A stretch of DNA of 64,000 nucleotides. Origin: Branchiostoma lanceolatum (taxonomy: Eukaryota; Chordata; Leptocardii; Amphioxiformes; Branchiostomatidae). Both the position numbers and the translations under genes were made by a program. This document shows positions 4,434-48,800 of the stretch, piece after piece. Each line of letters opens with the position of its first letter. The first letter of the stretch is position 1. The stretch spans positions 12,901,501 to 12,965,500 of the forward strand of contig NC_089727.1 of assembly GCF_035083965.1 (NCBI RefSeq), read 5' to 3'. The notes under the pieces are model-generated. The model did not search any database. It worked only from the letters and a program-made list of their open reading frames with translations, and was not told where the DNA came from.

Positions 4434-4525
4434 AAGTGCACTGGTGCACCCACAGTCAATAATTAGGTGTACAGCTCCAATTTTAAGTGCCCAAAAGTGA
4501 TAGCATGCACCAATTTCGAGCCCTG
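4434..4525 (-). repeat. Dispersed GGTGCA-rich repeat ending in AGGGCTCGAAA
   Basis: Read on the minus strand, this starts with CAGGGCTCGAAATTG and continues into GTGCA-rich sequence. Two relatives lie in the window at 30528-30660 and 40054-40170 (plus strand). A CAGGG terminus is typical of hAT-type termini, so these may be remnants of a non-autonomous hAT. No target duplication was defined. Confidence 0.5.
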
Positions 4526-6660: not shown

Positions 6661-7474
6661 ACTGGTGTAAACACAGGAATATACAGAGGCAGTGATTCAA
6701 GGATGTTCGGAAAAGTATATTTCTATCTGAACTTGGAACAGATTTAGCAGAATTTGCAACAATTTACAAGTCTTGAAGTAACATTTACAAGTCTTGAAAC
6801 AGCATCAAGCCGGCCATAAAAACGGGTGCAACATAAAGGTACTTCAAATAGGAATATTTGACAGTTTGTTTGATTAATTATTACTCAGCTCAAAAGGACA
6901 ACAATCGTATATGTCTGTCAGACAGCATAAGATAACATTCGTCGTCATATAGTCAACTTCTACATTCAATAAATAGCGTGTATAGAAGTACACAGTGAAT
7001 AGATTTGACATAATAATTTTTGTAATATTTTCGAACTCCGATACTAAACTAGGGGATGGAGTGAAAGTAAACTGGGGAAACTCGTTCAGTAACGTTTCAT
7101 CTTCAAACTCAACACGTCGTACTTATAATATGCCCGAACATTACATTGTTCAAAACTGACACAGTTAAACGTATGGAATTCATATCGATGATCTACCTAT
7201 ACAAAGTTATAATATTCAATATAATCTAATAGAAAGAACATTAGCTTAACAGATCGCTCTTAGGAAGAATATATACGCACACGAAATAACAGATAGGAAC
7301 CGAGCTAACCGCACGTATCCTTTACGCTTTCCAACAATATTTCATTTAACATCGTTACCGAAACATGAACACAAAACTCCAATTTTTCAACATCTTAACT
7401 TAAAGGGAACGTGCAACTACAAACTCTAATTGACCTCATATGTAGAACCTTCAGAGGATTACTTTAAAAAATAT

Positions 7475-13306: not shown

Positions 13307-21130
<7,824 letters not shown>

Positions 21131-26965: not shown

Positions 26966-28016
26966 TCATCCTAACAGAGGTTTTTCTTCCCCACTTGATT
27001 GCCTGATGCTTGTTCTGGAAAGACAAAATAAGACACGTTAAAATACGACTCACAAATAGACTACACTGTCCATGGCACGGCATAAGATACAGTTCATTTA
27101 TATTTGTCTGTTATGACATACACGTGTAACAAAACTGTCGGTTGAAAGAATACTCTAAACCCAGCAACATGCTAGGCGCTAGGCGTAGTTGCTAGTTTTG
27201 AATGAATAACTGCAATATGCTGCAATAGTCTTGTAGTTGATCCTATCGAGACAAAAAATACCAAAGAATTTCTTACCTTTTTGATTTCTTGCAGGAATCG
27301 TAAACGTAGAATACAACCATAACTGTCGTCTGAAAAAGATGAAATGGAAAGAATGATTTCGTGCATTGGCACAACCCTTCAAGCCGTCAACCTTCAATCT
27401 TTTGTATAGATATTGATATGTGTGCGATGTTGATATAAGTTGCAAATCTTAAGAGTGGTGGTACCTCGTCTGTGTCTATGTTTAGCACATGGAGTATCAA
27501 ACAAAACATTTCACCGGAATTTGTGAGTTTTGTTATGGTCTGTTTATCGCTTATGATCTTGTCATGACACAAGTACTCCAAGTTCGCAACATTTACACAA
27601 TTGATTTTTAAAGGGCCACCAGAAAACATTGAGCAGTCGATCATGTAATGCAAAGACTTTATTTACAGAATGAACAAATAAAGATGGAGCTTACGTAAAA
27701 TAGAGCAAGTCCACCGAATGCTGTCGATGCCCAGGGTAGCCCAAACTGTTGTGCCAGGGCACTGCTCACTGTTGGTCCCACGAACTCACTGAGGAGTTTC
27801 AAACATCATTTTAAGAGAGTCCCGGACAGTGATCGTTTATGCTATACAGACTAATGTATTAAAAGCGGACACTGCAAAGTCATTTGTTACATTATACTTA
27901 ATACAGAATGATACACACGAAGAAATATCCTAGTACTGCTTAAATTTGTAAGAGGCACTTGAAGTATTTTCAATCCTGAATCATACCTACCCAACCGCGA
28001 AAAATGAGTAAACCAG
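26966..28016 (-). CDS. SLC18B1-like MFS transporter gene A, 3' part (cut off by insertion)
   Basis: This is the distal end of gene A, whose 5' part is at 45837-50488. Minus-strand exons: the right fragment of exon 12 (27991-28016, donor GG/GTAGGT), exon 13 (27695-27788), exon 14 (27277-27329) and the terminal exon 15 (26966-27014, stop TGA). Phases agree throughout. Exon 13 encodes EFVGPTVSSAL and FGLPWASTAFGG, the TM11-TM12 region of the major facilitator fold. Exon 14 finishes TM12 and turns basic (YDSCKKSK), and exon 15 ends SSGEEKPLLG, a cytosolic tail like the EE...LL end of human SLC18B1. Exons 13 and 14 have counterparts in gene B at 52904-52997 and 52640-52686. All exons here are open and have intact splice sites, so decay has not begun. 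Without the 5' part the fragment cannot encode a transporter. Confidence 0.9.
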
Positions 28017-28023
28017 CCCAGAG

Positions 28024-28839
28024 CACCCGTTACAAGTACCGTTTACAGTTGTAAGTGGTTAACGGTGACCACCGTTAGCCAGTTATAAGTGGACCAGGAG
28101 ACGTCTCCTGGCTCTTGAGATACAGCGTTAACGGTAAGGACAGGCCGGGAGAGATGGGTCACCGAGGCCATAGATAGTGGACTGTAGGAGAAGCCTCGCG
28201 ATATTTGGGAACGTGACCTCACGAGGGTACAGAACGGTGGCCGGGAGGCTACCGGGAAGTGGCCGGGATATTGTGTTTTCAGGCCCGCCGACCGTCCGGA
28301 TCGATCGCCGTAGGTCGTCCAGCAGCAAAACTCTGCCTGTTCCATGGTGAGGTGAGCAACTTTGGTTCATTTATACCGATTATTTTTATATTGAATAGGC
28401 ACAGATCCTCGTTAATTTGCAACTAGCTCGAGCTATGCCCGGCGCGTGTTAAAGGGGGAGGGGGGTGCACACATCACCGCGAGTAAAAATAGTATGGTTC
28501 TTTTTAGCCCACTGCTGTTGTTACTGGCCTCATTCATAATTTGGCCACGTTCATCCAGATCATACATGTATCAAAAACACAAAAGGTCGGTTTGTAATAT
28601 TCTAACTGGAGTACGTAAAGTAACACTAACAGACACAGAAGACTAGTCGAATCGACACAGTATCCAGGGTTCGCGGAAAAGGCTGGCCAGGCTACCCTAC
28701 CAGGCTTAGTATGTTACCCTTTCTGGGCCCCCAGGGGTATGCATAGGGGCTTGGCCTGTAATGGAATTTCCTAGAGGAAAAATGTGTCAATAAGCCAATT
28801 CACGGTTGCGACTACACATGCGCAATGTCAAAGGTGAAG
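28024..28839 (+). repeat. Left 816-bp terminal inverted repeat of the 17.8-kb element
   Basis: It matches the complement of 45021-45836 with identical length. Differences I saw include ACTCTGCC versus ACACTGCC, GATTATTTT versus GATCATTTT, GTCGAATCG versus GTCGAGTCG, and AAGCCAATT versus AAGCCCATT. Subterminal TTAACGGT words occur near 28058 and 28127, with an ACCGTTA complement near 28071, and a short palindrome CAGGAGACGTCTCCTG is at 28095-28110. Two open frames (100 codons read outward, 66 codons read inward) are shared by both arms but resemble nothing known. The inner boundary falls inside an older MITE (28789-28977). Confidence 0.93.
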
Positions 28840-29458
28840 TCCCATGAGACGTAAACAAAACCCGTCTGGACGTTGTTATGCAAATCTAGACAACGTTGAT
28901 AGGAGTACTGTTTACAAGCCAGGGGCCTTCACCTTTGACACTGCACATGCGTAGTCGCAACGGTGAATGGGCTTATTAATATTATATATTTATAATTGCA
29001 GAAAAATGGGATGAGAGAGCAATGAAAGAAAATAACAGCACAAACAACACTATGTATACATTGTGAAAACACAATCACACATGCTAACCCACAGAGAAAT
29101 GCACAAAGCCATTTGTTTTGAATTTGTTGTTTTGGTAAACAAAGGTCCTCCCCTTCAATCTTAATATTTGTTGACCGGTATATTCTATTGTATACTTGGA
29201 ATTTGTTTCAAACGGCTTTTCCTTCAGCACCACATCCCCCCCCCCCCCACCCCCCACCCACCCAACAGCAATATCATAGTTCATACGCTGATGCCTTCTG
29301 TCCAATTCACCCTCAGCTGGGATTGCTATATTTTATTGACCCAGTTTTTCCTTTTGAAAATTCTACTATGCGCAAAATCCCCATGCAGAGCCTTAAGGTC
29401 CAGAAAGGGTAGTCTGGCAGGGTAGCCTGGCCAGGCAGGCTAGCCTGCCTTTTTCCGC
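28673..29458. mobile_element. Inverted-repeat element with GCGGAAAAGGC ends
   Basis: The left arm GCGGAAAAGGCTGGCCAGG through a region like TTACCCTTTCTGGGCCC is inverted at 29375-29458, with CAGAAAGGGTAG, GGTAGCCTGGCCAGG and CCTTTTTCCGC. The arms are diverged, so it is older than the 816-bp repeats. Its left arm is included in the left 816-bp TIR and copied in the right one, while its right arm exists only here. Confidence 0.55.
28789..28977. mobile_element. 189-bp MITE straddling the inner end of the left TIR
   Basis: Inverted ends of about 50 bp run AATAAGCC(A)ATTCAC to the complement GTGAATGGGCTTATT, each followed by GCGACTACNCATGCGCAATGTCAAAGGTGAAG or its variant. The 816-bp TIR homology stops exactly after the left arm (28839). 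The right TIR carries only one arm (45021-45070). Confidence 0.65.
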
Positions 29459-29822
29459 AAATGTTGCAGTAGTATTTGGCAAGGAATCTGTCGGCAATTT
29501 CAAGTTACAGCCTACGTTAGGAAGGCCTCAATAGGAAATTGGAAGTAAAACTAAAAGCAACAACTATGGAAAATTCTGGATATCATTTATTCCATATCAG
29601 ATACGAAACAAGAAAGTTGTTCAGCCTTAGGGGAATGTTATGACACTTTTGACAGGTTTGTGATAAAATTCAATCAATCACCCATTGATGTATGTTGCTG
29701 AACTTGACAATGGTGATCATTAATGATTAAAAAGCTTCTCTTTTAAAAGGAAGGGGCAGCACTTTGATGATGTACATGTACTGTACATTCAAATGTGGAT
29801 GAATTTACTTTGAACAAGGAGG

Positions 29823-30051
29823 TTACTGTAATATTAATTCACTTTATATTCAATCAACTTCATGGTAGCAAAATATTTCAGGGTAAGGAAAATAGATATT
29901 TTCACTGAACTTTAACTTCACGGTGGTGACCGTGGCAAGTGTTTTACAGACAGGATGTGTGAAGGAATCATAAACGATTACACACGGTGATGATAAGTTC
30001 ACTGTACATAGAGAGATAACCGTTGAAATAGTGAACATAAAGTTACAGTAA
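29823..30051. mobile_element. MITE-like element with TTACTGTAA ends
   Basis: TTACTGTAATATTAATTCAC at the left is mirrored by GTGAACATAAAGTTACAGTAA at the right. The centre has CTTCACGGTGGTGACCGTGG. It resembles family M1 in plan but is diverged in sequence. It is non-coding. Confidence 0.55.
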
Positions 30052-30383
30052 AAGTAAAAGAAACCAATTACAGTATAGACTGCCTATAACCTTGCTTTGA
30101 ATGAAATGTATATGATATGTAGCTATTATAGTATCACATCAATGGGGCCTCCATGCATGGGGGCTGGGGGTACAGACAACACCTTATGCTTGTACTAAGT
30201 TGTAGATAAACTGTTGCCCTGTTCACATTCACCATAGTAAGAATGCTATAATGACGCAGCAAGCTATTGGCATACCCTGATCTTGGAATAGCTCATAAAT
30301 TGTATTCTTCCCTGTGACTATAGTAGACAGATCTCCATCTTTACTGCTACCTTGTCCCCCCAACGACCCAGAGGTCAAGGGAC

Positions 30384-30439
30384 TAGGTAGGTAGGTAGGT
30401 AGGTAGGTAGGTAGGTAGGTAGGTAGGTAGGTAGGTAGT
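30384..30439 (+). repeat. (TAGG)n microsatellite
   Basis: About 13 uninterrupted copies of the tetranucleotide. Confidence 0.95.
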
Positions 30440-30478
30440 AGGCTATACTAGTACTGCCTGTCAGCTATATACATTGTA

Positions 30479-30479
<1 letters not shown>

Positions 30480-30527
<48 letters not shown>
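30480..30527 (+). repeat. (CA)n microsatellite
   Basis: A dinucleotide run with one interruption (CAAACA), directly abutting the CAGGGCTCGAAA repeat at 30528. Confidence 0.95.
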
Positions 30528-30660
30528 CAGGGCTCGAAATACTTAGTGCTGGATGCACGTGCACTTTTGTGCTCCCCATATCGCTGTGCACTAATTTTAA
30601 ATGTGGGTGCACTCAAATAGTTTTATAGCATTCCATGTGTAACTGCACTACTCATGGTAC
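30528..30660 (+). repeat. GTGCA-rich CAGGGCTCGAAA repeat
   Basis: A relative of 4434-4525 and 40054-40170. It begins CAGGGCTCGAAATAC and runs into TGCACGTGCACTTTTGTGC. Confidence 0.5.
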
Positions 30661-31179
30661 ACTTGTACTAACTAACTAAGTACTAACTTACATATGTACA
30701 TGATCAGTTTACATGAATTACATGATAGAGCTTCTGACTGCATTCTTGAATTCTTTCCAATTTTGAAAATATTGGACCCATTCGTGTCCCTGGGGGCCTG
30801 CCCTGATGTTTTACTCATGATGCTCAAGATTTTGGAGGTTCATTCGAAGTGCACTGCGACAGCATAATTTGGGGATCATTTCTGATCATGGGAAGTTTAT
30901 GTGCAGAGTCTCCTTCATTTATTAGTCTGTTTGCTATTCTAGTACATTTATTTAACAATGTATCTGTACATGTACATGTATTCACGCCTGTTGTCATAGT
31001 CCAGTACCTTGCAATTCGATTTATGTATCTACTGCTATCTAGTTGTAACTTACAAGTTACATTTGTTCTGTCTTGCAGCTTCATTGGAAAGAGATATCCC
31101 AAGAGGCCTGGGAAGTACATCAACGGACAACTGCTGCAACTAGACGTCACATGTAGAATCACAGGCAGATCAGAAATAG

Positions 31180-31310
31180 TACTGTAAATGGACTTAAGTT
31201 TGCGGTGATTTAATTTTGTGGTAGGTTGAAAATGGAGTGTTAGCGGGGGTTTTGATTTCGCGATGGCGCTACTCAGTATACTTGTATGTAGTCGCATATA
31301 GATACTGTAA
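31180..31310. mobile_element. Degraded M1-type MITE
   Basis: TACTGTAAATGGACTTAAG plus GCGGTGATTTAATTTTG opens the element, and ATACTGTAAAG near 31310 may be the partner end. A separate M1 half (AAACCACCGCTAATATTTC) lies near 31697. Diverged copies. Confidence 0.4.
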
Positions 31311-32555
31311 AGTAACAAAAACACTAGTATTGGCGCCTTTACAGACAGCCAGTCGGAAACCATAACAAGACAAGGATGCTACAGATGGACAGACCAGTTG
31401 CTTTTGGCAGTGCTTGTGTGATCATTGTTAAAAAGTGACTTTTTTCCACACAAAAAAGCTGTCAAGGAATAGTACTGTAAATTAAGCCTTTAACTTGGCT
31501 TGATATTCTTAATAAATCTGTATTCAATGTTCGAAGATCGGGTCTGTGTTCTATTTGTGCCTTGTTAACAGGTGCCTCAAAAACATCTGTACAATGTATA
31601 ATACTAGTAACATACATGTACCACTAAGACAAGGGGTAGGTCAGCAGAAGACAAAAACGGTCGCAGTGAAGCAGCCACTGCAAAAACCACAAGCATAAAA
31701 CCACCGCTAATATTTCTGCATACAGTACACTTCACTGGATTTTTGTCCAGTGCCCCTGTGTGAATATCCATTGTCTTCAGAGTAGCTGCTCTATAACAGT
31801 GGTCGTATGCAAAATGCTACAGGCTAAAAACAATCCCCACAGCTAGGCTGGGAGGTGAAGTGGATTGTAGGCCCCTATGAAGACAATTGTACCAACAGTT
31901 ACGGAACTACATGTACCACTAGTTAACATTATAATTATTATGTTGTAAGATGATATTTGCGGCTGAAAGGCTGGTCAACTTGAAATGTTGACCTTGTTCT
32001 CAGAAGGGCAATTAGCTACAGCCTGTAATTCCAACTGCAGCAATTGTAGTATGTACAGTTTATATATTTGATAACTTACAGGCAGTACCTATTGTCGGCT
32101 ATAACTACTGCCCCCCTCCCCCATCGAATTCAAGCTTTACAGTTAGTTACAGTAAAGTTACAGTCCTCCCACGCCTCTTGGAGCCTATGGTGCGCCCATC
32201 TCCGATTCGCAGTCCTTGGGCCACACAACTTTGTGCAAGTCTCTGCAGCGGGGACTAGTCCGCTGGTAGTGATGTTGTGCGTTTAACTTCCATACCCATT
32301 TGCTGAGTGCTAAGCTGAAAAAGCAGTATGTACGGCCGGTGATTGTACTCAACACCTACTGTGTGCAAGGTGAACACTCTACCATTAGGTCATCGCACCA
32401 CTTTATACAGTAGTGGAGTATATATTCTACAGAAACTGGTGGGCAGCATACCCAATATGGGGGCAATATCATATCCAGCTGGCCAGAATCTACAGCCAGC
32501 CCCTGTAGAGATACTCTATAGAAAAGACAGTAACCATATTTGTAGGAGTAGATGT

Positions 32556-33240
32556 CATAGTAGAGATTGCGATTCAGGACAATCAGTGATTCTACTAACG
32601 ACAGATTGTAACCGAGATCTGTACTAGGACAATCGGCAATTAAATCTGCCCTAGGACAAACTCTGATTCAAACTCATCGGAGTCTATCCCTCCTGTACAT
32701 ACCCCTTGAAGTTTGCACATGTTGTGATTGGGAATAGTACATTTTTGCAATGGGGTGATTTTGGAATAGTCTATATTTGTGTGGAGAATAGATTTGGTAT
32801 ATGACTAGTAAAATGTACTGAAAAGGTGAGACACTGAGTAACATCTTGAGACCTCAAAATTTGCTTTGTTTGATCACCTTCCAATTGATATTTCACCGAT
32901 TATTAACCTTTTCATAACTTGATGAGAAATTTCTTTGTCAGTAAACATACATGGAATGTATCCGTTATGAAATATGAACTTATTCACCTAGAATAGTAAT
33001 TGTGAATGTAGGTAGTGTGCTAAAACTGATTGAAATGTTGTGCAATGATTAATTATATTTTCCAAAGCATGATCTAATGGTTATCAGAATTTCTCCAAGT
33101 AGAATCACTGTTTGTTATCAGGACAGATTGTGATCGCTATCTTTACTGCCGGTAGTGTAATTGTAGGTTCTAGGACAGACTCCGATCGTAATCTGTCCTA
33201 GGACAGTCGCCAATTGTCCTGGATTGCAATCTCTACTGTG
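32556..33240. mobile_element. 685-bp inverted-repeat element (CAYAGTAGAGATTGC ends)
   Basis: The left end CATAGTAGAGATTGCGATT and the following CAGGACAAT are mirrored by ATTGTCCTGGATTGCAATCTCTACTGTG at the right. Subterminal words GATTGTAACCGA, CTAGGACAATCGGCAATT and GATCGTAATCTGTCCTAGGA repeat the same theme in both arms. There is no open frame of note and no clear target duplication. Confidence 0.6.
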
Positions 33241-34473
33241 ACATATAGCTAATATCAAGGTGTATATTTAACCTCCTTGCTAATATATATGGCCTCCTGA
33301 TGGGCAAAGTTTAATTCTGGCATCTTTTTAAAGAAAATGTCACCCCCTCCAAGAACTTTCAATGGACAAACACTTCCCCACATGTATACATACACCCTGT
33401 GAATAGAGAACTATATACGCTGTAAAACTGAACTTTAAGAGCTGGTCTGGACCCATATTGGATACTTGTTTTGAAAGTAACAACATGCCCAACAGATGGT
33501 CAATTATTTGTTGATTTTGACAACCCTACCCATTTTGACTTTATAGTCTTTGATAATAGACATGCATATAGTGTGACATTTTATATAAAAATGTCCCAGA
33601 AGGTTGGGTACTTCTATCCCTTGGTTCTGACAATATAGCCAAAAATGCTACCAGTAGTCTTAAACTTTTAAAACATTTTAGTTTTTACATGTAGAATTTA
33701 AGGTCATGTGAATTTTATGTATATACAATAGATATTTGAGTCATGAGTGTGTATCTAACATGATTTTTCTATTAAATGGCTAGTAAACAGTTACTGTCAA
33801 GGACAGTTTTTTAGCTATTTGTTTGACTCTAGGTTCTAAAGACTGGCTGATGTATCCCAGGTAAGATTTGCATGGTTCTTAGATCTGGGGAATAGGTAAG
33901 GCAACTTCCACCTTATATTGGTGTGGCTCTTGGGACTCAACAACACCTAACAGGTAATGTTGGTATGGCTCTAAGAGCATCGGTAATGTACTATACCGGT
34001 TTAGATATAGCACACCAGTTGTGTACATGGGTAAGCAGAGGCTTAATCTTAATTTTCTCTTACTACTGTACAGAAGATTATGTAATGCTGGTGTGCCTCC
34101 TACAGCATATAGGACACATGACCAGGAAATATACCATGCTACTGAGGCACTAGGTAAGGCTCCATGCAGCACTGGTAGAATATACTGATATGGAGACCAT
34201 GTGAGGGCACAAGTAATGTTTGCATGGCTCTGGAGTCTGGAGACCAGGTACAAGTAATATTGCCTATTGAATATTCTGCAGGTACTACATCAAATACATA
34301 TACTTTAGGTACTCTTCTTCCAAGAATGTATCTCCATGATATATTATGTTACATATACCACAATGCATTTGTCATTAAAGCTGCACCCATTTGCTATCTT
34401 GTTTCCATCGTCTTTTCTAATGTCTTGTGTGTGCATTGTGCATAGTTTTATATATCAACCATGTTACTGTGTA

Positions 34474-35753
34474 CCCAACAAAGGTGTCATTGAGTCTGTC
34501 TAGACATGCCGGTCACAGAAATGTACATTTTAATGAAATAAACTCAAGGGGGGCCCCCTGAATGAAAAATCAGATTTTTGTGAATTTCGAAGACGTTAAT
34601 GAATTTGCCCAACAAAGGTGTCATTGAGTCTGTCTAGACATGCCGGTCACAGAAATGTACATTTTAATGAAATAAACTCAAGGGGGGCCCCTTGAATGAA
34701 AAATCAGATTTTTGTGAATTTCGAAGACGTTAATGAATTTGCCCAACAAAGATGTCATTGAGTCTGTCCAGACATGCCGGTCACAGAAATGTACATTTTA
34801 ATGAAATAAACTCAAGGGGGGCCCCTTGAATGAAAAATCAGATTTTTGTGAATTTCGAAGACGTTAACGAATTTGCCCAACAAAGGTGTCATTGAGTCTG
34901 TCCAGACATGCCGGTCACAGAAATGTACATTTTAATGAAATAAACTCTAGGGGGGCCCCCTGAATGAAAAATTAGATTTTTGTGAATTTCGAAGACGTTA
35001 ACGAATTTGCCCAACAAAGGTGTCATTGAGTCTGTCCAGACATGCCGGTCACAGAAATGTACATTTTAATGAAATAAACTCTAGGGGGGCCCCCCTAAAT
35101 GAAAAATTAGATTTTTGTGAATTTCGAAGACGTTAACGAATTTGCCCAACAAAGATGTCATTGAGTCTGTCCAGACATGCCGGTCACAGAAATGTACATT
35201 TTAATGAAATAAACTCTAGAGGGGCCCCCCTAAATGAAAAATCAGATTTTTGTGAATTTCGAAGATGTTAACGAATTTGCCCAACAAAGATGTCATTGAG
35301 TCTGTCCAGACATGCCGGTCACAGAAATGTACATTTTCATGAAATAAACTCTAGGGGGGCCCCCTGAATGAAAAATTAGATTTTTGTGAATTTCGAAGAC
35401 GTTAACGAATTTGCCCAACAAAGGTGTCATTGAGTCCGTCCAGACATGCCGGTCACAGAAATGTACATTTTAATGAAATAAACTCTAGGGGGGCCCCCCT
35501 AAATGAAAAATTAGATTTTTGTGAATTTCGAAGACGTTAACGAATTTGCCCAACAAAGATGTCATTGAGTCTGTCCAGACATGCCGGTCACAGAAATGTA
35601 CATTTTAATGAAATAAACTCTAGGGGGGCCCCCCTAAATGAAAAATCAGATTTTTGTGAATTTCGAAGACGTTAACGAATTTGCCCAACAAAGGTGTCAT
35701 TGAGTCTGTCCAGACATGCCGGTCACAGAAATGTACATTTTAATGATATAAAC
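34474..35753 (+). repeat. Satellite-like tandem array, 134/135-bp unit, 9.5 copies
   Basis: Units begin CCCAACAAAGRTGTCATTGA at 34474, 34608, 34742, 34876, 35010, 35145, 35280, 35414, 35549 and 35684. That gives nine full units and one partial. Each carries ACATGCCGGTCACAGAAATG, a G6C4-6 block and TTTCGAAGACGTTAAYGAA. Length varies only in the G/C run (134 or 135). Units differ by a few substitutions, so the array is young. There is no dyad-repeat or spacer pattern, so it is not CRISPR-like. Confidence 0.95.
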
Positions 35754-35805
35754 ATAAGGTAGGGGCCGCCCTGAACCAAAGAAGTAGATTTTGTTCAAGG
35801 CGAGA

Positions 35806-36244
35806 TATGAAATCCTACAGGAGAAATGTGTTTTATTAAATTTTGTTATTTCTGCTAGAAATGTTTGATTTATTATCGGAAATTTAACTGCTAGTAACTA
35901 CATAACCAATTGCGTTCATCCGTTGGGAATCCATACAATGTCTAAGTAAGCTTTTATTAATACGTCATCCAAATTTCAAAGAAATCCGTTGTATTCTAAG
36001 TGAGATATGAAACCCAAATGTTCCAGTCTCGCGCAAAGCTAGGCCGCGTTCCACCTGCTATCTTCCGGGGGGACTTCTCTAGATTGATTTTTTACCGCAA
36101 CTCACCGAAGTGCGTTTTCCTTTATAAAACAAGAAGGAAAGGATATTTTTCCATGAAACTTTGGCAAAAGTAAGTTGATATGCTTATCTATCTGTGCTGT
36201 CAGTAGTTTTGCTGTTCCGCTTTTCTGCTTGAAGATATAGGCCA
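35806..36244 (+). repeat. Direct repeat of about 435 bp, copy 1
   Basis: It shares CATACAATGYCTAAGTAAGC, CCAAATTTCAAAGAAATCCG, CATCTTCCGGGGGGAC (one variant base) and GTAAGTTGATATGCTTATC with copy 2 at 36412-36847. The spacing is about 604 bp. It is non-coding and lies just after the satellite array. Confidence 0.8.
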
Positions 36245-36411
36245 TTAATCTATCGTCATTTTGGGGCACGGTCAAAATTCCCAATCTAAAAAGTGCGGCA
36301 TATTAGAAAAATGATGTAGCGTTAGGGATCTACATCGTGCAATAGACATATCATCAATATAACTCTGTCAAGGACATTTCAGTGGTATTAGCACTACCTT
36401 GCTGAGTGTTT

Positions 36412-36847
36412 GCACTCAATTTTTCAGGAGAAATGCGAAGTTTTATTTGGCACTAGTGACAGGAATATATGATCTATGGTCAAAATATCAACTGTTAATC
36501 ACTCCATAACCAATTGTACTTATCGCTTTGGAATCCATACAATGCCTAAGTAAGCTTTCATGAATATGTCATCCAAATTTCAAAGAAATCCGTTGTATTC
36601 TAGGTGAGATTTGAAATTGAAGATTTTCCGGTCTCGAGCAAAGCGAGGCTGCGTTTCACCTGCCATCTTCCGGGGGGACTTTCTAGCTTGATTTCCTACC
36701 GCAACTAACGAAAGTGCGTTTTCCTTTATAAAACAAGAAGGAAATAATATTTTTCCATGAAACTTTCACAAAAGTAAGTTGATATGCTTATCTATCTGTG
36801 CTGTCAGTAAATTTGCTGTTCCGCTTTTCTGCTTGAAGATATTGGCC
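36412..36847 (+). repeat. Direct repeat of about 435 bp, copy 2
   Basis: It is diverged from copy 1 (35806-36244) by scattered substitutions, so this duplication is older than the nearby satellite expansion. Confidence 0.8.
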
Positions 36848-39377
36848 AAACAAAACGATTTATTTCATCCTAGCGACAAACGTTAGAACTGCAAAATGGA
36901 CCCGACAGAAAGTGTTTTTGTCGTCTTCTGCCGAGTTAAAAACCTTTCATTCGTCAGATAACCTTCCAAAAAAAGTTTAAAAAATAGTAAAAAATGTCTA
37001 TCGATATTTCATTCGTCCAATAGCCTTTACGTGCGTTTGATTGCATATATTTACAAACAACCTACGATTTATCTTTTCAGTCCAGAACTATAGATTTCAA
37101 TGTACAGTACTTGTAGTGCATAGACATTATTTTCCATGGGAGTCTGCAAAACAACCTTTCATGTTGTATCACTTTCTGGACGCTTACATGAAATATGTTA
37201 AAGACTTTCATTAACGAAATATGATCTCAGTTACAAAATTAGCATGAGCATATAGAAATATGCCAGCCGAATTTGAAAGAAATCATTTTTGTTCTATAGG
37301 CGAGATAAAACAAGCAACGCTTTCAAGCCCTGTACAATGTCAGAAGATTAAAGGAGTCCTAAATTCCGGGGGGGGGGGGAGTTATTTACCAATAGATGAT
37401 AGTTTTTCGAAGTAAAAAACGAATACTTATTACAATATATGATAAGTACCCACTAGTCCCGTGCGCATCAAAACGCATTCAGTATTTTACTAAATTCCCC
37501 ACATGATCCTCTATTTTCTTTTCACTGGAAGTACAGGATGATTTGATTGTCACCTGCCAGGTAGCTCGTGCCACTTGACGTGCTTTTCAGCACCAAGGAG
37601 TCAGCTGTGATCTTCAGCCAGAGGCCCCTCAAACGTTTCGTCCCTCAAAGGAGGTTATATCCCCCACGTACCCTGGTACGCCCTCAGCCTCACTGCTGCT
37701 CCTTAAGCCTCTTCGTTGTTACACTTATGCTGTCTCCTTCTTCCCCCAGGCCTTTCCTCTCCTTCTGGTCCATAACCAGAAGCTATATTTTTCCACTTCC
37801 TCTGCCATTCTTTTTATGAACTTTCGTGATACAATGTACATTCATGGCGTGATAAAAGAATGTCAGGGGGGCTAAGAAAGGTCTTATATGTGCCTTTATA
37901 TCTTATTAACAACTGGCCTTATGATTGTGCTAAGCCCCCCTTATTTATGCTAAAAATATTCACCATGAAGGAAGTGGGAATACGTATAGGGAATCCATGG
38001 GTAGGGTCTGAATTCTGTTCAAAGTCGGCTGATTATGTATTCATTGATACATAATCTAGTGGAAAATAACACTCCCTTCTAGAGTTTAGGACTCCTTTTA
38101 GTATGACTTATCCAAAAACATTACAACTTCAATAAATATATATATGCATATTGTGGCTTTGTTTTGAGTATTGTAGATAACTATAGATTACATGAAAAGA
38201 TAAAAACATCTGAATCGTCTTTAAAATCCTGCTGGCTTTATTGACTTAAACTCCAGAAGCACATGTTATGTTCGAAGACCACAGTTTATTTTATGCTGAC
38301 TTGACTGCAGTAGAATAAAGCAACAAAAAATGAATCCCATATCAACAACTTTTTACATAGAAAAGTGTTTGTGTTTGTACTTTTTATGTACATGTGCATA
38401 ACAAGGGTAACTTAGACTCATGCATAACACTTTGTAACAAACTGATATGGAAAGATTAAGCAATCTAGATTATTAAGATCATATCAACATCTTGTTACCC
38501 TCAACATGTAATTGTTACAGTAAAAATAAATAAATATGAGTCGGTATTGCAAGGCAAGACTCACATTAGGTCTCAGCACATACATCTGACATTGGCGCAA
38601 TGACCACATCAGTTTGAAGTGAATAGATCACAAAATGCACACAGCTTGAAATCAATTAATCAGGAACTGCTCAGATACCTATACATGTTCAACAGAGCAT
38701 CTAAAACACACAATTTATCCTAACTCCCCTGCAGCTACCTTACATTCTGAAGCTGTTCAATGGAATATTTGACAGAATATAGAAAACAACAGAGAGCGTG
38801 GCTTCCTTGTTTAATCAGTTATGCCTGAGGTGCCACTGACATGCTTTTTCCTGGGTCACCCTCCGTGTATGGATTGACTTTGGAATATACCAATATGTGT
38901 TATGATAACAGTCAAACAAAGACTAAAGAGGAAAACAATTCAATGCAATTCAAATTGGTTATGTACTGTATTATTGCATATAGAAATACATGCATGGGCA
39001 CAAACAACTGTCAAAGACGTGGACAATTACACTTACTGACAGCATATGTAGTCCTGGAATATGTATAAGTTACATATAAGAGACATGCAAAACGGGGGCA
39101 TTTTCTACTACATTTTTAATCTAATGAGGTTTTTTGGATTGAGGTGTGATTTTAAAAGCATGTGGATCAGAGTCATTGCCATTGTAATAATTACATACAT
39201 GTCTACAGTGCAATGGGAATTGAAATTGCAGGAAGGATTCATACATGTGTAAACTTTTACTAGCTGTTTGACAGACCCAATGCATTCTAAAAAAACTAGG
39301 ACTTGGTTGGTGTTGATACATGACTCCTCCATGCAGATGCAGGTAATCCATTGTTGCACTGTCAGCTTCTCACTCAC

Positions 39378-39434
39378 TGTCATCTCATGAGGACAGGGCA
39401 TTGATGCTCTGTCTGGGTTGAATATTGTCAGCCC
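39378..39434 (-). other. Exon-like fragment inside the 17.8-kb element
   Basis: On the minus strand a strong acceptor (TTGTTTCTATAG) is followed by 57 open nt (GLTIFNPDRASMPC...) and an ACA/GTGAGT donor, phase 0 to phase 0. The frame actually stays open to 39108. I do not recognise the peptide and found no matching neighbouring exons. It may be a captured exon or chance. Confidence 0.25.
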
Positions 39435-39620
39435 CTATAGAAACAACAAGAACAAAAAGGTGAAGGTTGGGTTAATAAAGACAATGCATTGTCTTTTTTC
39501 TAGTGCTTATAGTATGTACAAAAATACATAGGATAAGTGCAATGTATATAATGTCTCGTGACAACAATAGATACCTAATACACTACAGTGTAGTCTAAGC
39601 AGTCATAAGTTAAGTTTTTG

Positions 39621-39671
39621 ACACATGTCCCTGGGACTCCTCACTTATCAGAAACTCTGATCTAAATATGT

Positions 39672-39745
<74 letters not shown>

Positions 39746-39795
39746 CCCTGGGACTCCTCACTCATCAGAAACTCTGATCTAAATATGTCAGCACA

Positions 39796-39832
<37 letters not shown>

Positions 39833-39880
39833 CCCTGGGACTCCTCACTCATCAGAAACTCTGATCTAAATATGTCAGCA

Positions 39881-39937
<57 letters not shown>
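39621..39937 (+). repeat. Composite minisatellite: 60-bp unit plus (CA)n, three copies
   Basis: The unit CATGTCCCTGGGACTCCTCA ... AAATATGTCAGCA occurs at about 39624, 39741 and 39828, each followed by a CA tract of different length. Long THTH or VCVC open frames here are artefacts of the repeat. Confidence 0.95.
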
Positions 39938-40053
39938 TCCTACAATTCTTACTACATTTGTATAAAAAGGGAATAACATTCTGTTAGAATTCTCATGTGA
40001 TGATGAATACAGGAGAAGCTACTAGTATTCCATCTATACTGCCTTTGGCTATA

Positions 40054-40170
40054 CAGGGCTTGAAACAGTGGGTGCATGTGCACCTTTGTGCACTCAAAAT
40101 TGGAGCTATACACCTTATTTCTTACTGGTGCACCTACATGTAGGGTTTGTACTATAGTATATAGAATATT
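40054..40170 (+). repeat. GTGCA-rich CAGGGCTTGAAA repeat
   Basis: Third copy of the family at 4434-4525 and 30528-30660. It continues AGTGGGTGCATGTGCACC. Confidence 0.5.
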
Positions 40171-40790
40171 TTTTGAAATCTAAGTATCAGAAAAAGGAAT
40201 ACAACCATATACTTTATTTGATGAATTACTTGTTTGAAATTTTGAAGTCAGATATAGAACAACACTGATTTTGAGTTCTTAGAGCCCGAAGCAATTAACT
40301 TAATAATGTTTTGCTGACTTCAGGATGAAACGCAGTGCTGTGCTTTGTGGGTCACAAGGCCAATTGCATCATGGACTTACTACGTATACTGTGGGACTGG
40401 ATCATGTTTAGGTTAAGTTTACAGCTTTCTTACAATATTTGCAGACTTTTAAAAGATACTATCACTATATCAGTATGTATGGATGTGAATTATTCATTAA
40501 ATACCACTGGTCAAGCAGGCGACCTAATGAGATTAGACATAGGAGGAAGAATAATGTTTTTTCGTAGCAGGTTACAGTTCATATGATTATCCAATAATAA
40601 AGTGATGCGCTTTTTCTTATGCATCATAAGATCAATCAAGATTAGACTGTGAAAACATAAGCCCCTTGACTAAGTTCAACATGAAGGAGATCATACATGT
40701 GAAGGTAACCAATGTACATGTATACAGCACACCACATCCCCTTCTCGATAGTTCTTCTGCTTTCTTCAACAACAACAAAAATGTTTCTCA

Positions 40791-42600
40791 TGTTGGTGGA
40801 AAATCCTGTCCAGTCCGGACAGAAAAAACTCTGTCCATTCTGAAGAGAGGGTCTGCATGGGGGAGGAGGTGTCCTGTCCTGCATAGAATCAGAGATACTG
40901 ACTACGCCTAAAAATGAAAGTCTGTATCGACAATAGTCTACTATTTTTATTTCACTGTTAATCGTAGCCAGTCGGCTTTGCCATTAATTCTACATAGCCT
41001 GCTATTTGTTATCCTGAATTCTTCTTTCAGCATTACTGAGATTTTAATCGCAAGGCGTAGTCGAAAGACAACATTGCCCTATGAAAAGTTACAACAGGAC
41101 ATCTGGTTATCTTGGTTTCGACACAGTAAACATGCAAACTTTGGGTCTCAAAATGTAAGGAATTGCATTTGAGAGGGTTAGGATTTTATGAGGGTCTGCA
41201 TGGGGGGGTCCTGGCAACGCTTAACGGTAAATTCAGGCCAGCCGATAACGCTTAACGGTAAATTCAGGCCGGCCGATAACGCTTAACGGTAAATTCAGCA
41301 TTTTTAGAACATGAGATACCCCTAAAGACGACGTTTTTTTGCCACTTGTCGTCCTGATCTTGTGGCAAGAGACCTATTACGCTATGCCATTCTCGCACGC
41401 CTGCTCCGAACCCTTTACTGATTCGGCGGCGACAGGAAATTTCGTATTGGTGGGACGAAATGTTAATGATCACGATGACGAGCGCCGAAGGCGCGACGAA
41501 AATTTTGAAATCTTGACCCTCTGAAACGCTATTTCCTGCATTCTGAGGGGGGATTTTGCAGAAGAGTAAGCTAAGATTTATGACATCTCTATTTGAAAAA
41601 AAAAAATACAGAAGAGTTTCAGGTTGATTTTTGAGGGGCGTCACGCCCTCCAGTCCTCGCCGGAGCTGCGACATGCTCCCGGGGAAAATTCTTGACACCC
41701 TGAAACGCTATTTCTTGCATTTAGATGGGCAAATATTACTGGTAATGTAAGTTAAGATATCTCTGTTTGTGAAAAAATACAGACGAGTTTCAGCTTGCAA
41801 ATTGAGTTTTGGGGGTCGAAGCCCTCCGGACAATATTTTTCGACGGAGGCCCGGCATGCAGACGGAGAAAATTTTAAAATCTTGAACCGCGAAACGCTTA
41901 ATTTCCTGAATTTTAAGAAAACTTTGCTGGTAGAGTAAAAAATAGAAGTGTTTCAGGCACCCTACCGACATATTTTCGCCGGAGCCGTGTGCTCCTGGAG
42001 AAAATTTTGAAATCTTGACCCACTGAAATGCTTTCTTCTGCATAACGAGGAATTACTCAATAACACTTAACGTTGAATTCAGGATGACAAATAACACTTA
42101 ACGAAGAATTAAAACGGCCAGTAACGCTTCACGATTAATATTCCGATAACGCTTAACGGTAAATTCAGGGCGGCCGGTAACGATTAACGGTGAATCAAAA
42201 TTGCTCGTAACGCTTCACGAAAAAGGGCATGCAGACCCTCTTTTATAGGAGAGCATGCCAGACCCCCCTACATTGGTTGGCTGGAATGTCATGAATGCTT
42301 CGTATGCACCCCACCTCATGTCGATACGACATGTATTAAGGGTTAAGATTTGAGAGGGTTAAGATTTTCTGGGAGAGTATGCCCTCAGACCCCCCTACAA
42401 AATGGTTGCACCCTTGGGCCATTCATGATGCTGCGCTGCCAGTTCTATAGGAATGTGAACCACTGTTAAGCGTTGTCGATCCTCTTGAATTAAACTAAAC
42501 CTGCTGAATTTAGCTTTAAGTGTTGCCAGGAACCCCCATGCAGATCCTCTGGACATTTTTTTCTGCTGTCCGGACTGGAAAGGTTTTTCTGCCAACACAG
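40791..42600. mobile_element. 1.8-kb inverted-repeat element with subterminal TTAACGGT arrays
   Basis: About 70-bp imperfect ends: TGTTGGTGGAAAATCCTG ... GTCCAGTCCGGACAG ... GGGTCTGCATGGGG at the left is mirrored by CCCCCATGCAGATCCTCT ... CTGTCCGGACTGG ... GCCAACACA at the right. Inside are direct repeats of CGCTTAACGGTAAATTCAG (41218-41299, three copies, and four variants at 42060-42215). A degenerate tandem repeat of about 150-190 bp fills 41420-42031, each unit with CTGAAACGCTATTTC and GAGAAAATTTT-like words. Minus-strand frames in it (144 and 111 codons) are by-products of these repeats. Confidence 0.65.
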
Positions 42601-42744
42601 TTTTTCTCATCGGCCAATGCAGATCGTTGTGGTACCTACATGTACCTCAGGCAATAATAACTGGTTTACTTCTCACCACTAGGAGGTGGTCTTGTTAATG
42701 TGAATGCATTTAAGTTTGCATGGTTCTGATTTTGTGCTAAGGGG

Positions 42745-43314
42745 AAAATAGAGTGTTTGCGGTGGTTTTAAGTTTGCAGCAGTGCTATACTGTAGTCACA
42801 TACCTGATGATACCGCCACAGGAGGGGTGGATATAGGTTCGGCTTAATAAGGTCCGAGTCCAAGTTTAGGTCCAGGGACCTGAACCTGGACCTGATCCTG
42901 TCCAGTTGATGTTTTGTTTTATTAGACCAATATCAAGCATAGAGAATTAATACTGACAAGCAAAACTATAAAAGTTTCTTGGTGAGAAGACTTTCAAGAT
43001 AAACCAACGTGTTTGATATTTGAATGTTGCACTTATTTTAAATGCCTGTTTTTGTCAGAGGGTAGACTCAAAACACTTTTCATCAAATAAAATAGAAAAA
43101 TATATTTGTACTGTATTCATTTTTTTTTGGACTCAGGTTTTTGGCTCTCAGGTTTTTGGACTCGGTTTTTGGATGTTATATAGGCCTGAATCAGGTCCAG
43201 CAAACCGGTATCCACCCCTACGCCACAGTATTAGACAAAAATGTTTGCGGTGAAACGGTTGCCGTGAACACCATGAACATAAAACCACCGCGAACATTTC
43301 AAAATTTACAGTAT
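42745..43314. mobile_element. M1 MITE interrupted by a hAT-like MITE
   Basis: The left arm (GTGTTTGCGGTGGTTTTAAG) ends at 42821 and the right arm (AAACCACCGCGAACATTTC, TTTACAGTA) resumes at 43221. The intervening 399 bp are a separate insertion. Confidence 0.65.
42822..43220. mobile_element. hAT-like MITE with 8-bp target duplication
   Basis: The ends GAGGGGTGGATATAGG and CCGGTATCCACCCCTA are imperfect inverted repeats. They are flanked by CGCCACAG at 42814-42821 and 43221-43228. An 8-bp duplication with an AGGGGTGG-type end fits the hAT superfamily. There is no coding sequence. Confidence 0.7.
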
Positions 43315-44231
43315 TACTGACACAAACTAGTAGCATGTAAGTACGTGGACTGTAGTGAGATATAGTTTGGAGAGGTCAAGTGGGCTGTTTGCAGAAGTGT
43401 TTTAAAGATAGGGCACAATGTACAACACCACTCAACAGAGAGGCTAGCTATAGGGGCATGGTCAGGAATGCTTGCCTTGGCCTAGCCATGGCCATATGAG
43501 ACTATGAGTCTGTTGCTGTAGGGTATTGAACTGTTTGTCGTGAAATAAGCATGATCCAGGAAGTTCCCACAACTTGCAAGGGGATGGATGAAAATGATTT
43601 TGCCCCAAGTTTGTTTTTACTTGTGTACTGCTATGAAAGCCAAATGGAATGAAATTCGGTGAGGAAGAGCTAGTTGCTGTAAGGAGAGATAGGAGGAGCT
43701 TTTTCCAGAATAGACACTTCTTGCATGGAGGTGGTTACAATATCATTATTAATCATTTTGGGGGCAGTTTTGCCCGAAATGATGCTTTTTGCAATTGTCT
43801 TCCGTGACATCCTATGTAAGCCAAGTAAATTTGGTGAGGACTCAGGTGTAAGGTCTTTGCACCAGATATTAAAGGTGCAAATGATCATGGAGTAGTCCAC
43901 TTCTTAAATGGAGGTGATTTTTTGTATTTTTGGTGCCTGTAATACCCAGGTACCCTGCTAGGAAAGCTAAATGGCTTGAAATTTGCAGTGGGAATAACTT
44001 ACTAGTAATAAGGAAAGCATTAGTGGACAGTTCACTTTTCGCTAGGGGGTGGTTGAGAATGATTTTAAGTTTGCGATAAAGAGGTAACCGCAAAAACCTA
44101 GGTCACTGGCAACGTTGGTTTTGACTGTTTGATACAAATGTCATATGATTTCCAGTGTGGCTATGAGAGATCAGACCATGGACTTGATGACAATACATGT
44201 ACTAGTACTAGTAGTGGCTGAATCTTGTACC

Positions 44232-44422
44232 CTCTACCAGGCTCCGCGACAAGGCTGGGAAAATAGTAGAAATCGGCAAATAGAGTGAATAGTGTTCCAA
44301 GGGAGTTAGCTACTGAGAGAGGGTCCATGAGCTTCACTGTATAGCGGAGTACCACTGGCATACTTTCACTCTATTTGCCGATTTCTACTATTTTCCCAGC
44401 GATCTCGCGGAGCCTGGTAGAG
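44232..44422. mobile_element. 191-bp MITE with 57-bp inverted ends
   Basis: CTCTACCAGGCTCCGCGA ... TAGTAGAAATCGGCAAATAG at the left is mirrored by CTATTTGCCGATTTCTACTA ... CGCGGAGCCTGGTAGAG at the right with few mismatches. It is non-coding and comparatively young. Confidence 0.8.
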
Positions 44423-44769
44423 GCTATGAATCTTGTAAAACACATCCAAGGCTGCCCTAAAAATGTCACCAATTCATTCAAAAGTTATGGACCTCTTCTT
44501 GCGACCAATGTGAACATGGTCGGGCTTAAACAGGTGTGTCGTACGACAGGTTTCTATGACCTATCATCTGAAAATGACTTCTTGCATTTGAGGGACGAAA
44601 TTCAACAGGCTTTACGGTAATTTGAAATTGAATGCCTTTCGATTCCCAAACATGAAACAAAATCTCTGGTGGGAACACAGGTGTCAGCGATGTTCTTGTA
44701 ATCTTTTAGTTTATTTATAATTTGCTTATAGCTTTCCCCTTAATGTGAATGACATACTATATAGGGAAA

Positions 44770-44936
44770 ATTGAGTGTTTGCAGTTGTAACAATAGCGCT
44801 ACAGTCATACTAGTAAGTCGGCAAAAAGTTTTGCGGTGGTTTTAAGTTCGCGCTGAAAGTTCACTGCAAAAACCATGAACATCAAACCACCGCGAACATT
44901 TCTGCATTGACGGTATTTTGACCAACTTACTAACAG
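44770..44936. mobile_element. M1 MITE copy
   Basis: TTTTGCGGTGGTTTTAAG in the middle and AAACCACCGCGAACATTTC on the right mark the family. The ends are decayed. Confidence 0.5.
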
Positions 44937-45020
44937 TATCTCATTCTCGTACTAGCACATGTATCTCCCAGTCCCAGGTACTATGTGGTAAGTTTGGAGA
45001 TTCATACTGTCCTGTCCTGT

Positions 45021-45836
45021 CTTCACCTTTGACATTGCGCATGTGTAGTCGCAACCGTGAATGGGCTTATTGACACATTTTTCCTCTAGGAAATTCCATT
45101 ACAGGCCAAGCCCCTATGCATACCCCTGGGGGCCCAGAAAGGGTAACATACTAAGCCTGGTAGGGTAGCCTGGCCAGCCTTTTCCGCGAACCCTGGATAC
45201 TGTGTCGACTCGACTAGTCTTCTGTGTCTGTTAGTGTTACTTTACGTACTCCAGTTAGAATATTACAAACCGACCTTTTGTGTTTTTGATACATGTATGA
45301 TCTGGATGAACGTGGCCAAATTATGAATGAGGCCAGTAACAACAGCAGTGGGCTAAAAAGAACCATACTATTTTTACTCGCGGTGATGTGTGCACCCCCC
45401 TCCCCCTTTAACACGCGCCGGGCATAGCTCGAGCTAGTTGCAAATTAACGAGGATCTGTGCCTATTCAATATAAAAATGATCGGTATAAATGAACCAAAG
45501 TTGCTCACCTCACCATGGAACAGGCAGTGTTTTGCTGCTGGACGACCTACGGCGATCGATCCGGACGGTCGGCGGGCCTGAAAACACAATATCCCGGCCA
45601 CTTCCCGGTAGCCTCCCGGCCACCGTTCTGTACCCTCGTGAGGTCACGTTCCCAAATATCGCGAGGCTTCTCCTACAGTCCACTATCTATGGCCTCGGTG
45701 ACCCATCTCTCCCGGCCTGTCCTTACCGTTAACGCTGTATCTCAAGAGCCAGGAGACGTCTCCTGGTCCACTTATAACTGGCTAACGGTGGTCACCGTTA
45801 ACCACTTACAACTGTAAACGGTACTTGTAACGGGTG
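45021..45836 (-). repeat. Right 816-bp terminal inverted repeat of the 17.8-kb element
   Basis: Complement of 28024-28839, same length, a handful of differences. Homology starts at CTTCACCTTTGAC (45021), immediately inside which the sequence is CCTGTCCTGT and unrelated to the left side. It ends GTAACGGGTG at 45836, followed by CCCAGAG. Confidence 0.93.
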
Positions 45837-48800
45837 CCCAGAGACAACTCCGTACGTTGCGACGTTTTCTTCGAATCCGGCATCTCTGTGGAAAGCAAAC
45901 GTCTTAGTTAATAACGACAGGGTCATCAAGTATGATAGATGTTGTTTATGAATTATATCAAACCTTGCCTGTTCTTTTCACAATGTTGATGAAAAACTTT
46001 TGATACAAACGAGTATACGCTTGCTGATGCTAGTTGTTAGCTTCCAAAGCAACACAACTAACGAGGTTTGAATTCCAGTTCAATATAGACAGACAAATCA
46101 AGTGGTTGTCGGAGAGATAACCACACGTCACCTCTAAGAAAATGACCACACGTCACCTTGCTGCCCACAGTAATTCATTGTACACCGGCACGTAAGCTCC
46201 AAAGGCCACCGCCATCACTACCTGGCCGACGATAATGACCCAAAGTGATCTGAAAATCAAGATTTATCCGTTAGAAGATTAAACTGCTGAAAAAAAAACT
46301 GATGAACCACATCGAATTTGCCTCAAATTCTTGCAACTGTCACTTTGAGTAAATCACAATTGTTAATCTTCTTGTATGTTAAATTAACAAAATATATAGC
46401 CGCGGCGACTGTTGGAGGGATTACTTGCAAGGAAGAGAAGCTTTCCAACAGTCGTCGCGGCTACAAAATATAGAACTAAAGGATAAAGTAGGCTTACTTG
46501 GGCAAAACATGTCCGTACTCCGTCAAGAGTGGGGAAGGTCCAATTAGAACGCAGGAAACTGCAAACGTCACCATTCCCCCTGACGTCATGATTCGACTTG
46601 CACCCTGGGAAAACAACTAAAAGTTATTTCGTCTGAAGCTTGATATTTGCAAAAAGGACTGGAGTATCCTGCTCATGGTGATTTTGCAGTAATTTGATCA
46701 AAATTAAGACATCACCGTGGGTAAGTAACGTCCATACAAACGTATGTCAGCATTTCAGTATCTTATCTTGCATGTTACCACTCTTCCCCTGCACCTAAGG
46801 CGCCGTAAAATCTGTGTGTGAACTTTGCACTGTCTATATCTAAATTCCCCACCTCCTCTAGTTGGCTGCCTCCAAAACGGGGAAGCTTACACGGCAGAGA
46901 ACTACACATGTATTAATAACAAAGGACAACATCACACAGTTCAGGTGCAGAACTTCCATATTTAAGAATTGTACCTTACCTTTCAGTGTAAAGTTATTGA
47001 ATGAATTGTAGTTATTGAATGAAGTGTAGGGTTTCGTGAATGAATTGTAGAGTTATTGAATGAATTTTGATGAATTTTAAGAAATGCTCTTTGTCACACA
47101 CCCCAATTTACCCAGGCATAGCTGCAATGGTATTTGTGTGCACATGTCGCAAAGAAATCAGTAATTTGTCTATCTATCCATCTACAGTAAGAACGGTGTT
47201 CTAGAAGGACCTTCTTGTCGGCCAGCCAGCCCCACAGCGGCGCCAGGAGAGTGTAGACTCCGGACCGGAGCAGGAAGATCAGGCCTATCGTGGTGGGACT
47301 GAGGCTGAACTGTGGAGACAACATACTTGTATGTGTGAATGGTAACGCGTCACGTAGCAATATGCTACCAAACACACGACAGACGCTAAGCTATGGGACA
47401 TCACCAGGGGTGAATTTTAACGGGTAACGTAGCAGCCACGCATGGTAACAAACACATGCCTGAGACTAAACTGTGGAGACAACATCATGTGCATCTTAAC
47501 ATGTAACTTAGCAACCACATATGGTACCAAACACATGACTGAGACTTAACTGTGTGGACCAATATCATGTGTGAACGAAGCAACATCGCATCAATATGAT
47601 TTTGCAGAGTTTGTCGCTAATAGAGATGACATTTGAGTCAATACCTGGTTCTCGAGGAAAGGTTGAAGAATTGGATCCAAATATGACATGGCAGCAGCCA
47701 TGACCACCACTATGCCACCTGAAATCAGATGAATTCGTCCGTCTTTGAAATAATCAAATGTAACATCACATGTATGTGTGAACGTTACTCGTAAGCAAGG
47801 ATAACCACGAGGATATGGATACTTACATGTGACAATAACAGTTGGGATCTTCAACAGCTTCCATAGCTGTCCTGACTTCTGCTCCCCCTCCCTCTCATCT
47901 ACAGAAAACACATCAAAAGATATTACCTTTAAATATATGTTATGATGGTCAGTAGCGATGGATCTGACAGTGATAGGGAGATATTACCGGCTTGTCGAGG
48001 AACCAAGATCCACACTATCACCCCACAGGACAGCATCAGGCCTCCCATGGACAGGAACGGTAGTCTGAAGCCCCCTATCTGTACGGGTGAAAAGTGCATC
48101 TGTGAACCACGGCTGCATAAGCCTGGGTGCCATCCTATTTCTACCAGGGCTCCTACACTCGCTACTCTAGGGTAGCGAGTGTAGGAGCCACGGTAGAAAT
48201 AGGATAGCACCCAGGCTATGGCTGCATCTGTTCTGAAAGTATGAAAGGTCCTCTGTGTTGGTGGTCACGACATAGTAAGATACCCTGGAACACTTGAGCA
48301 AGGTAAGCTTGGAATATAAAGTTTGTAAACCGAATGACGTTCGCAAATATCTATAATCCGAACTTACTTTGTAAAGGAGACCTCCGATTGGCGGGCCAGC
48401 CATCATGCCGACTCCAGTGAAGATCTCCAAGATTCCCTGTGGCATGTATGTGACATGTGACATGTGGTTTATACTGTCTGAAACATCATTCTCAAGATCT
48501 CCTTCATTGCTATCTACAGCACAACGTCGGCTGTCACTGGAAGATGGATGCTTTTAGGAATTCGTAATAGGGTTGAGAGCATAAATTCATGACCGTTTCC
48601 AATCTTTTTGATGGAAAATTCATAACTGACACTTCGATGTTTCTGTTTGACCCTGGAAACCATACCCTTACAAACTGTCATAGAGTCTATCTCTGTTACA
48701 GTAAGATGGAAGACCACTAGTGGGAGGCGCATACTTGTCGTTCACTTTGACAACACTTGTTATCCATATATATAACAAACATGATCAAAAACATCCATCC

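Follow-up and report, generated by a model that had tools for sequence, protein, structure and literature searches.

A 64,000-nt stretch of the amphioxus Branchiostoma lanceolatum (contig NC_089727.1 of assembly GCF_035083965.1, positions 12,901,501 to 12,965,500; hereafter the window, with coordinates counted from its first base) carries an unusually large DNA transposon with long terminal inverted repeats (TIRs) and no recognisable gene, inserted into a conserved exon of a transporter gene of the SLC18B1 type. The insertion is real, well resolved and apparently recent. The element spans 28024-45836 (17,813 bp), is bounded by inverted arms and is flanked by a perfect 7-bp target-site duplication (TSD), CCCAGAG. 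An initial annotation, made from the letters of the window, had proposed this outline, and direct comparison recovered all of its parts: the CCCAGAG pair, the termini (CACCCG from 28024 and CGGGTG up to 45836) and two arms of equal length that differ at 4 of 816 positions (99.5% identity, 0.5% difference) and whose likeness ends abruptly past position 816. An eighth base is also identical on the two sides (G at 28016 and at 45836), but the right-hand G is the element's own terminal base, so that symmetric ends give a duplication of 7 bp. When two positions of the window were drawn at random, they had an identical 7-mer in 212 of 2,000,000 draws (about 1 in 10,000). Two features by which a TIR cut-and-paste DNA transposon is recognised are found here, namely terminal inverted repeats and a duplication at a site that can be restored, the exon being rebuilt when the block and one CCCAGAG are removed. 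Searches of the arm's first 25 bases against viral_contigs and of the arm against phages gave no match, as expected for animal DNA.

The host gene (gene A) runs on the minus strand from 49867 to 26966, and its 14 recovered exons, joined through AG acceptors and GT donors with an unusual donor, GTCCTT, 3' of exon 47309-47211, give 1,191 nt open to the final stop; this exon set covers the recovered part of the gene, from 49867 down to the stop. Its product matches SLC18B1 in the PDB (9d7u, E 1.4e-67, residues 3-374), with vesicular amine transporters matching too, and MFS_1 in Pfam (1.9e-46). The element splits the 11th of these exons, and rejoining 45885-45837 to 28016-27991 rebuilds the 75-nt exon that had been suggested, with an ACAG acceptor and a GTAGGT donor. 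The insertion point falls between the VVSG and LVYS codons, and the alignment to SLC18B1 crosses the rejoined junction ungapped. A paralogous gene (gene B, 52.9-63.5 kb) has counterpart exons in matching order with its ATYGLVSGIFGAFMSMG exon unbroken; the SLC18B1 match and this collinear gene agree with the proposed parallel to gene B and the SLC18B1 family. The frame as found continues 12 codons into the element and then meets a stop, and the exon phases are such that skipping the broken 75-nt exon would preserve the frame. One of the transporter's introns also contains an inverted sequence of about 90 bp (48122-48215) that resembles a nearly perfect hairpin; it was read by eye and seen as a self-match too. 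Past the transporter's 3' end, on the opposite strand, lies a caspase (Peptidase_C14) domain (about 25792-26370, + strand, E 1.8e-36).

Since the block stands between inverted ends and a duplication within an otherwise intact exon, the whole 17.8 kb was inserted at once, and because the recovered gene A is otherwise open and the arms are 99.5% identical, the evidence points to a fairly recent event. That the block is instead an assembly artefact or an ordinary intron, with the exon halves joined otherwise in life, is highly improbable: the locus was analysed in a single assembled sequence, which leaves room for such an account, and against it stand the perfect duplication, the exact repair of the exon, the splice sites and the unbroken paralogue. 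Exact removal of the block as a GT-AG intron can be rejected because CTCTGGGCA, the duplication and first element bases in the sense of the gene, holds no GT.

The mover of the block was most likely a cut-and-paste transposase, and on balance we regard the element as a single very large non-autonomous long-TIR cut-and-paste DNA transposon that was moved in trans. For the Pfam scan its six frames were each halved and stops were replaced by X; none of the resulting 12 scans gave a transposase domain, in agreement with the initial annotation, or anything else that passed a curated cut-off, and the sub-cut-off matches were three, VWA_N2 (0.84), HMD (0.13) and MLD (0.16). Against the PDB, the six frames of 29500-44501 gave nothing at E 0.1 (6 of 6 scans). 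The same Pfam procedure recovered the left-flank caspase domain (1.8e-36, 193 residues), so a one-exon transposase domain of similar size should have been seen; it missed the short exons of the transporter, so a transposase split among short exons could escape detection. Elsewhere it returned sub-cut-off matches, Babuvirus_MP (0.75) in the right flank and, as the sole match on the + strand of 1-9002, DUF1410 (0.6). The element showed no THAP C2CH pattern, and the window as a whole gave neither an Rfam match at the gathering threshold nor a tRNA match.

These negative scans would also suit a giant element that is autonomous and belongs to a class not yet described, its transposase being unrecognised or split into short exons, a reading that we judge improbable. 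In its favour, the longest stop-to-stop open reading frame of the element (184 aa, 30824-31378, minus strand) exceeds the five printed shuffle values of 97-136 (ranks 1, 11, 21, 31 and 41 of 50, the nine highest being unseen), and BED-like cysteine-histidine patterns number 4 in the element against a mean of 0.7 in 30 block shuffles. Set against this, the 17.8 kb hold no frame longer than 184 aa, nested repeats and tandem arrays lie inside it, Pfam finds no BED or other zinc-finger domain in it, and the combination of a 7-bp duplication with long arms has precedent. It is barely credible that the block is the decayed remains of a Polinton/Maverick or of some other virus-like element. Polintons are of similar length and have long arms; they also have a 6-bp TSD, AG ends, a protein-primed polymerase and an integrase, and nothing in any frame of the element matches a polymerase, an integrase or a capsid above cut-off. 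We reject this class on the 7-bp TSD, the CACCCG ends and the absent polymerase match.

The inner part of the arms bears on how they were formed. Arm positions 660-816 recur, inverted and diverged, in the left interior at 28927-28977 and 29333-29434 (z 31.5 and 20.0 for the inverted arm against the left interior under two scoring schemes, 30 shuffles each); the direct orientation gives somewhat raised values there (z 2.7 and 3.4), and in the other segments compared (right interior, two regions of the middle, two flanks) z does not exceed 1.5 in either orientation. The best interpretation of these pieces is that they are opposite ends of a single older repeat, at about 28669-29460, whose first ~171 bp would make up the inner left arm (about arm positions 646-816) and whose observed-to-expected (o/e) CpG ratio is 0.46, against 0.93-0.99 in arm positions 1-645. 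No duplication was found around this repeat, where only 5-bp direct matches occur. The right arm stops inside its copy of the repeat, which is complete only on the left; as the left part of the repeat is present in both arms, either the arms grew to include a nested repeat or the right end derives from a left-type end by truncation. Comparable growth is described in passages on Galileo, with transposable-element (TE) fragments recruited into both ends in Drosophila willistoni (PMC4168063) and TIR expansion through recruitment of internal sequence in D. mojavensis (PMC3573991).

A rival reading is a composite (macro-) transposition, in which transposase would have used the outer ends of two inverted copies, both truncated, of a smaller transposon with long TIRs and moved the 16 kb of ordinary chromosome between them. 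We consider this unlikely, although the right arm does break off, as if truncated, within a repeat that is complete on the left, and the interior is CpG-poor, has the left flank as its nearest match in composition and holds a nested miniature inverted-repeat transposable element (MITE)-like repeat with a duplication of its own. There is also precedent, in the cited passages of PMC6431247, in Ising's TE, where a large DNA segment was moved between foldback elements; such elements resemble ours in their long inverted arms and differ in that the foldback-like Tm1 has 9-bp TSDs and that no pair of complete arm elements was seen here. Weighing on the other side, a search of the interior for the 16-base end CACCCGTTACAAGTAC, allowing 3 mismatches, gave no inner terminus, though a more decayed one would escape it, and the sole third match in the window (50019-50034, 3 mismatches) is outside the element; equal arms with a 0.5% difference would moreover require two near-identical remnants or later conversion. 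Macro-transposition by two copies had been raised at the outset, and for two complete copies, which should show inner termini at both arms, it finds no support in this search; in its truncated form it keeps the standing given above.

Composition gives the interior the look of old, ordinary chromosomal DNA. Its CpG o/e of 0.52 equals that of the left flank (right flank, 0.74), and its trinucleotide distance to the left flank (0.076) is smaller than in the other nine segment pairs compared. The arm-interior distance of 0.287 is uninformative, as interior pieces of equal length vary over a range that includes it (median 0.250, 95% 0.389), and the high CpG o/e of arm positions 1-645 relative to the interior mean is only supportive, as 12.75% of 400 random 645-bp interior pieces reach a CpG o/e of at least 0.96. 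The interior further contains CA runs, a tandem array and two nested repeats (Table 1). The duplication at the 199-bp MITE-like repeat is presumably of MULE-type target length. The 1.8-kb repeat has imperfect inverted ends (TGTTGG...CCAACA) whose likeness extends further by eye, its possible direct repeat TTTCTCAT has a five-base offset at the right end, and its internal repeats carry a ACCGTTAAG motif that resembles a motif in the arms of the large element.

A mechanism consistent with a non-autonomous transposon would begin with a DDE transposase, supplied from elsewhere in the genome, binding repeated sites near both ends. Motifs like ACCGTTAAC might serve as such binding sites, although this is a guess: matches with at most 1 mismatch number 22 in the window, where 10.8 would be expected and none of 100 shuffles gave as many; the outer 112 bp of each arm hold five, two of those on the left overlapping, the nested repeat holds another five, at 41.2-42.2 kb, and seven lie outside the element. 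The block would then be excised and integrated at a target cut with a 7-bp stagger, repair doubling CCCAGAG. Recombination or conversion may have lengthened the arms, made them alike and carried part of the older nested repeat into both, and the interior could be old DNA devoid of recognisable coding sequence that was gained by repair filling or capture.

Several points weigh against a recent, trans-mobilised transposon of this kind. The element is defined by the one copy at this locus, and conversion between the arms could keep them alike as well as recency could. As no transposase was recognised, it is placed by TSD length and end structure, and the target CCCAGAG, which is no clear palindrome, is unlike Galileo's GTANTAC or 1360's GTTNAAC. 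The six-frame scan is blind to genes in short exons, so that a split transposase could be overlooked, and the block contains a 184-aa frame for which this reading does not account.

Table 1. Coordinates (window numbering) of the element, its parts, nested repeats and the interrupted gene.
Feature	Coordinates	Strand	Basis
Left target-site duplication CCCAGAG	28017..28023	.	Direct sequence comparison
Left terminal inverted repeat, 816 bp, starts CACCCGTTACAAG	28024..28839	+	
Right terminal inverted repeat, 816 bp, terminates CGGGTG	45021..45836	-	
Right target-site duplication CCCAGAG	45837..45843	.	
Probable older nested repeat, diverged inverted ends (GCGGAAAA...)	28669..29460	.	Inverted pieces, CpG o/e
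Interior, 16,181 bp, CpG-poor, near left flank in composition	28840..45020	.	Pfam, PDB (29500-44501), open reading frame and composition scans
134-bp tandem array, within interior	34474..35792	.	
MITE-like nested repeat of 199 bp with 94% complementarity between its 62-bp ends and a perfect direct repeat of 9-11 bp, TGAATCTTG(TA)	44228..44426	.	
Nested 1.8-kb repeat, 38-bp 84% inverted end pair, possible 8-bp direct repeat TTTCTCAT	40791..42597	.	
Host gene A, SLC18B1-like MFS transporter, 14 recovered exons, broken by element	26966..49867	-	
Split exon, first 49 nt, including one duplication copy	45837..45885	-	
Split exon, final 26 nt	27991..28016	-	

Elsewhere in the window, 17129-18382 and 61802-63124 are long similar stretches in one orientation, with translated pieces about 50-100% alike, that probably represent copies of a single dispersed repeat, and pieces related to them lie near 51.7-52.5, 57.3-58.2 and 59.7 kb.

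To our knowledge, natural cut-and-paste units this large, made of ordinary-looking DNA and without a transposase, are seldom caught at so well-resolved a site. It is conceivable, if rather doubtful, that the element belongs to an amphioxus family of giant gene-less long-armed transposons that capture and move 16-kb chromosome blocks through a P-type or undescribed transposase and have lately been breaking intact genes. Should further copies and empty alleles exist, the locus would show directly that a large block was mobilised and that a transporter gene is disrupted in one haplotype or more, and its long arms with their nested repeat would allow tests of how such arms grow. Among the titles and abstract openings listed, a scope outside which lie Repbase and most subscription papers, there is no description of the 17.8-kb element.

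Placed beside known systems, the element does not support the initial claim that no known class fits, which was too strong, as 1360 and Galileo of the P superfamily make 7-bp TSDs; what holds of that annotation is a one-unit insertion in an SLC18B1-type exon with a 7-bp duplication and no recognised transposase, and what falls is its classlessness. When TSD length and long arms are taken together, the P superfamily (1360/Galileo type) is nearest, yet less likely than not to be the true one, the more so as some hAT families have 7-bp TSDs; the remaining probability is shared among hAT, MULE and a superfamily not yet described. The hAT elements start with CAG or TAG, unlike the CACCCG found here. 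Symmetric ends give 7 bp, and an 8-bp reading, GCCCAGAG, would have no T at position 2; Pfam finds no hAT transposase in the element, which a non-autonomous copy would also be without. The comparisons that follow draw on passages of the papers named, as well as of PMC3688188, PMC2775673, PMC7776569, PMC3706591 and PMC3169594. Some hAT families are annotated with 7-bp TSDs, as here (implied by an example command in the Repbase paper, PMC4455052), while hobo duplicates 8 bp of NTNNNNAN or GTNCGNAC type (PMC3276498). Dada resembles the element in its TSD of 6-7 bp and has a family, Dada-1_BF, listed for Branchiostoma floridae; TIRs are absent from Dada-U6 and Dada-U1, however, and the Dada elements whose termini can be defined are all reported to lie in small-RNA genes. 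We reject Dada on the 816-bp TIR, the protein-coding exon as target and the absence of Rfam and tRNA matches.

Within the P superfamily, 1360 shares the 7-bp TSD (its modal length) and targets GTTNAAC, whereas the P element duplicates 8 bp at GTCCGGAC (PMC3276498) and has TIRs of 31 bp; neither motif is like CCCAGAG. Galileo likewise makes 7-bp TSDs, at GTANTAC (PMC4168063), with three D. willistoni copies having 8-bp TSDs, and its TIRs, from hundreds of bp up to 1.2 kb, and the sequence recruited into both of its ends bring it close to our element in structure. In size they differ, 17.8 kb against 296-1,541 bp in three tabulated Galileo copies, and PMC3573991 cautions that TIR length does not classify transposons. 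The single site known, CCCAGAG, conforms to neither GTANTAC nor GTTNAAC and no THAP-DDE transposase was found in the element, so we do not assign it to the P superfamily; the missing transposase blocks membership and not likeness, because the longest-TIR Galileo copies, in D. mojavensis (PMC3573991), are also without the gene. The 17.8-kb element is best treated as a giant, dependent variant within the known cut-and-paste transposons and not as something entirely new.

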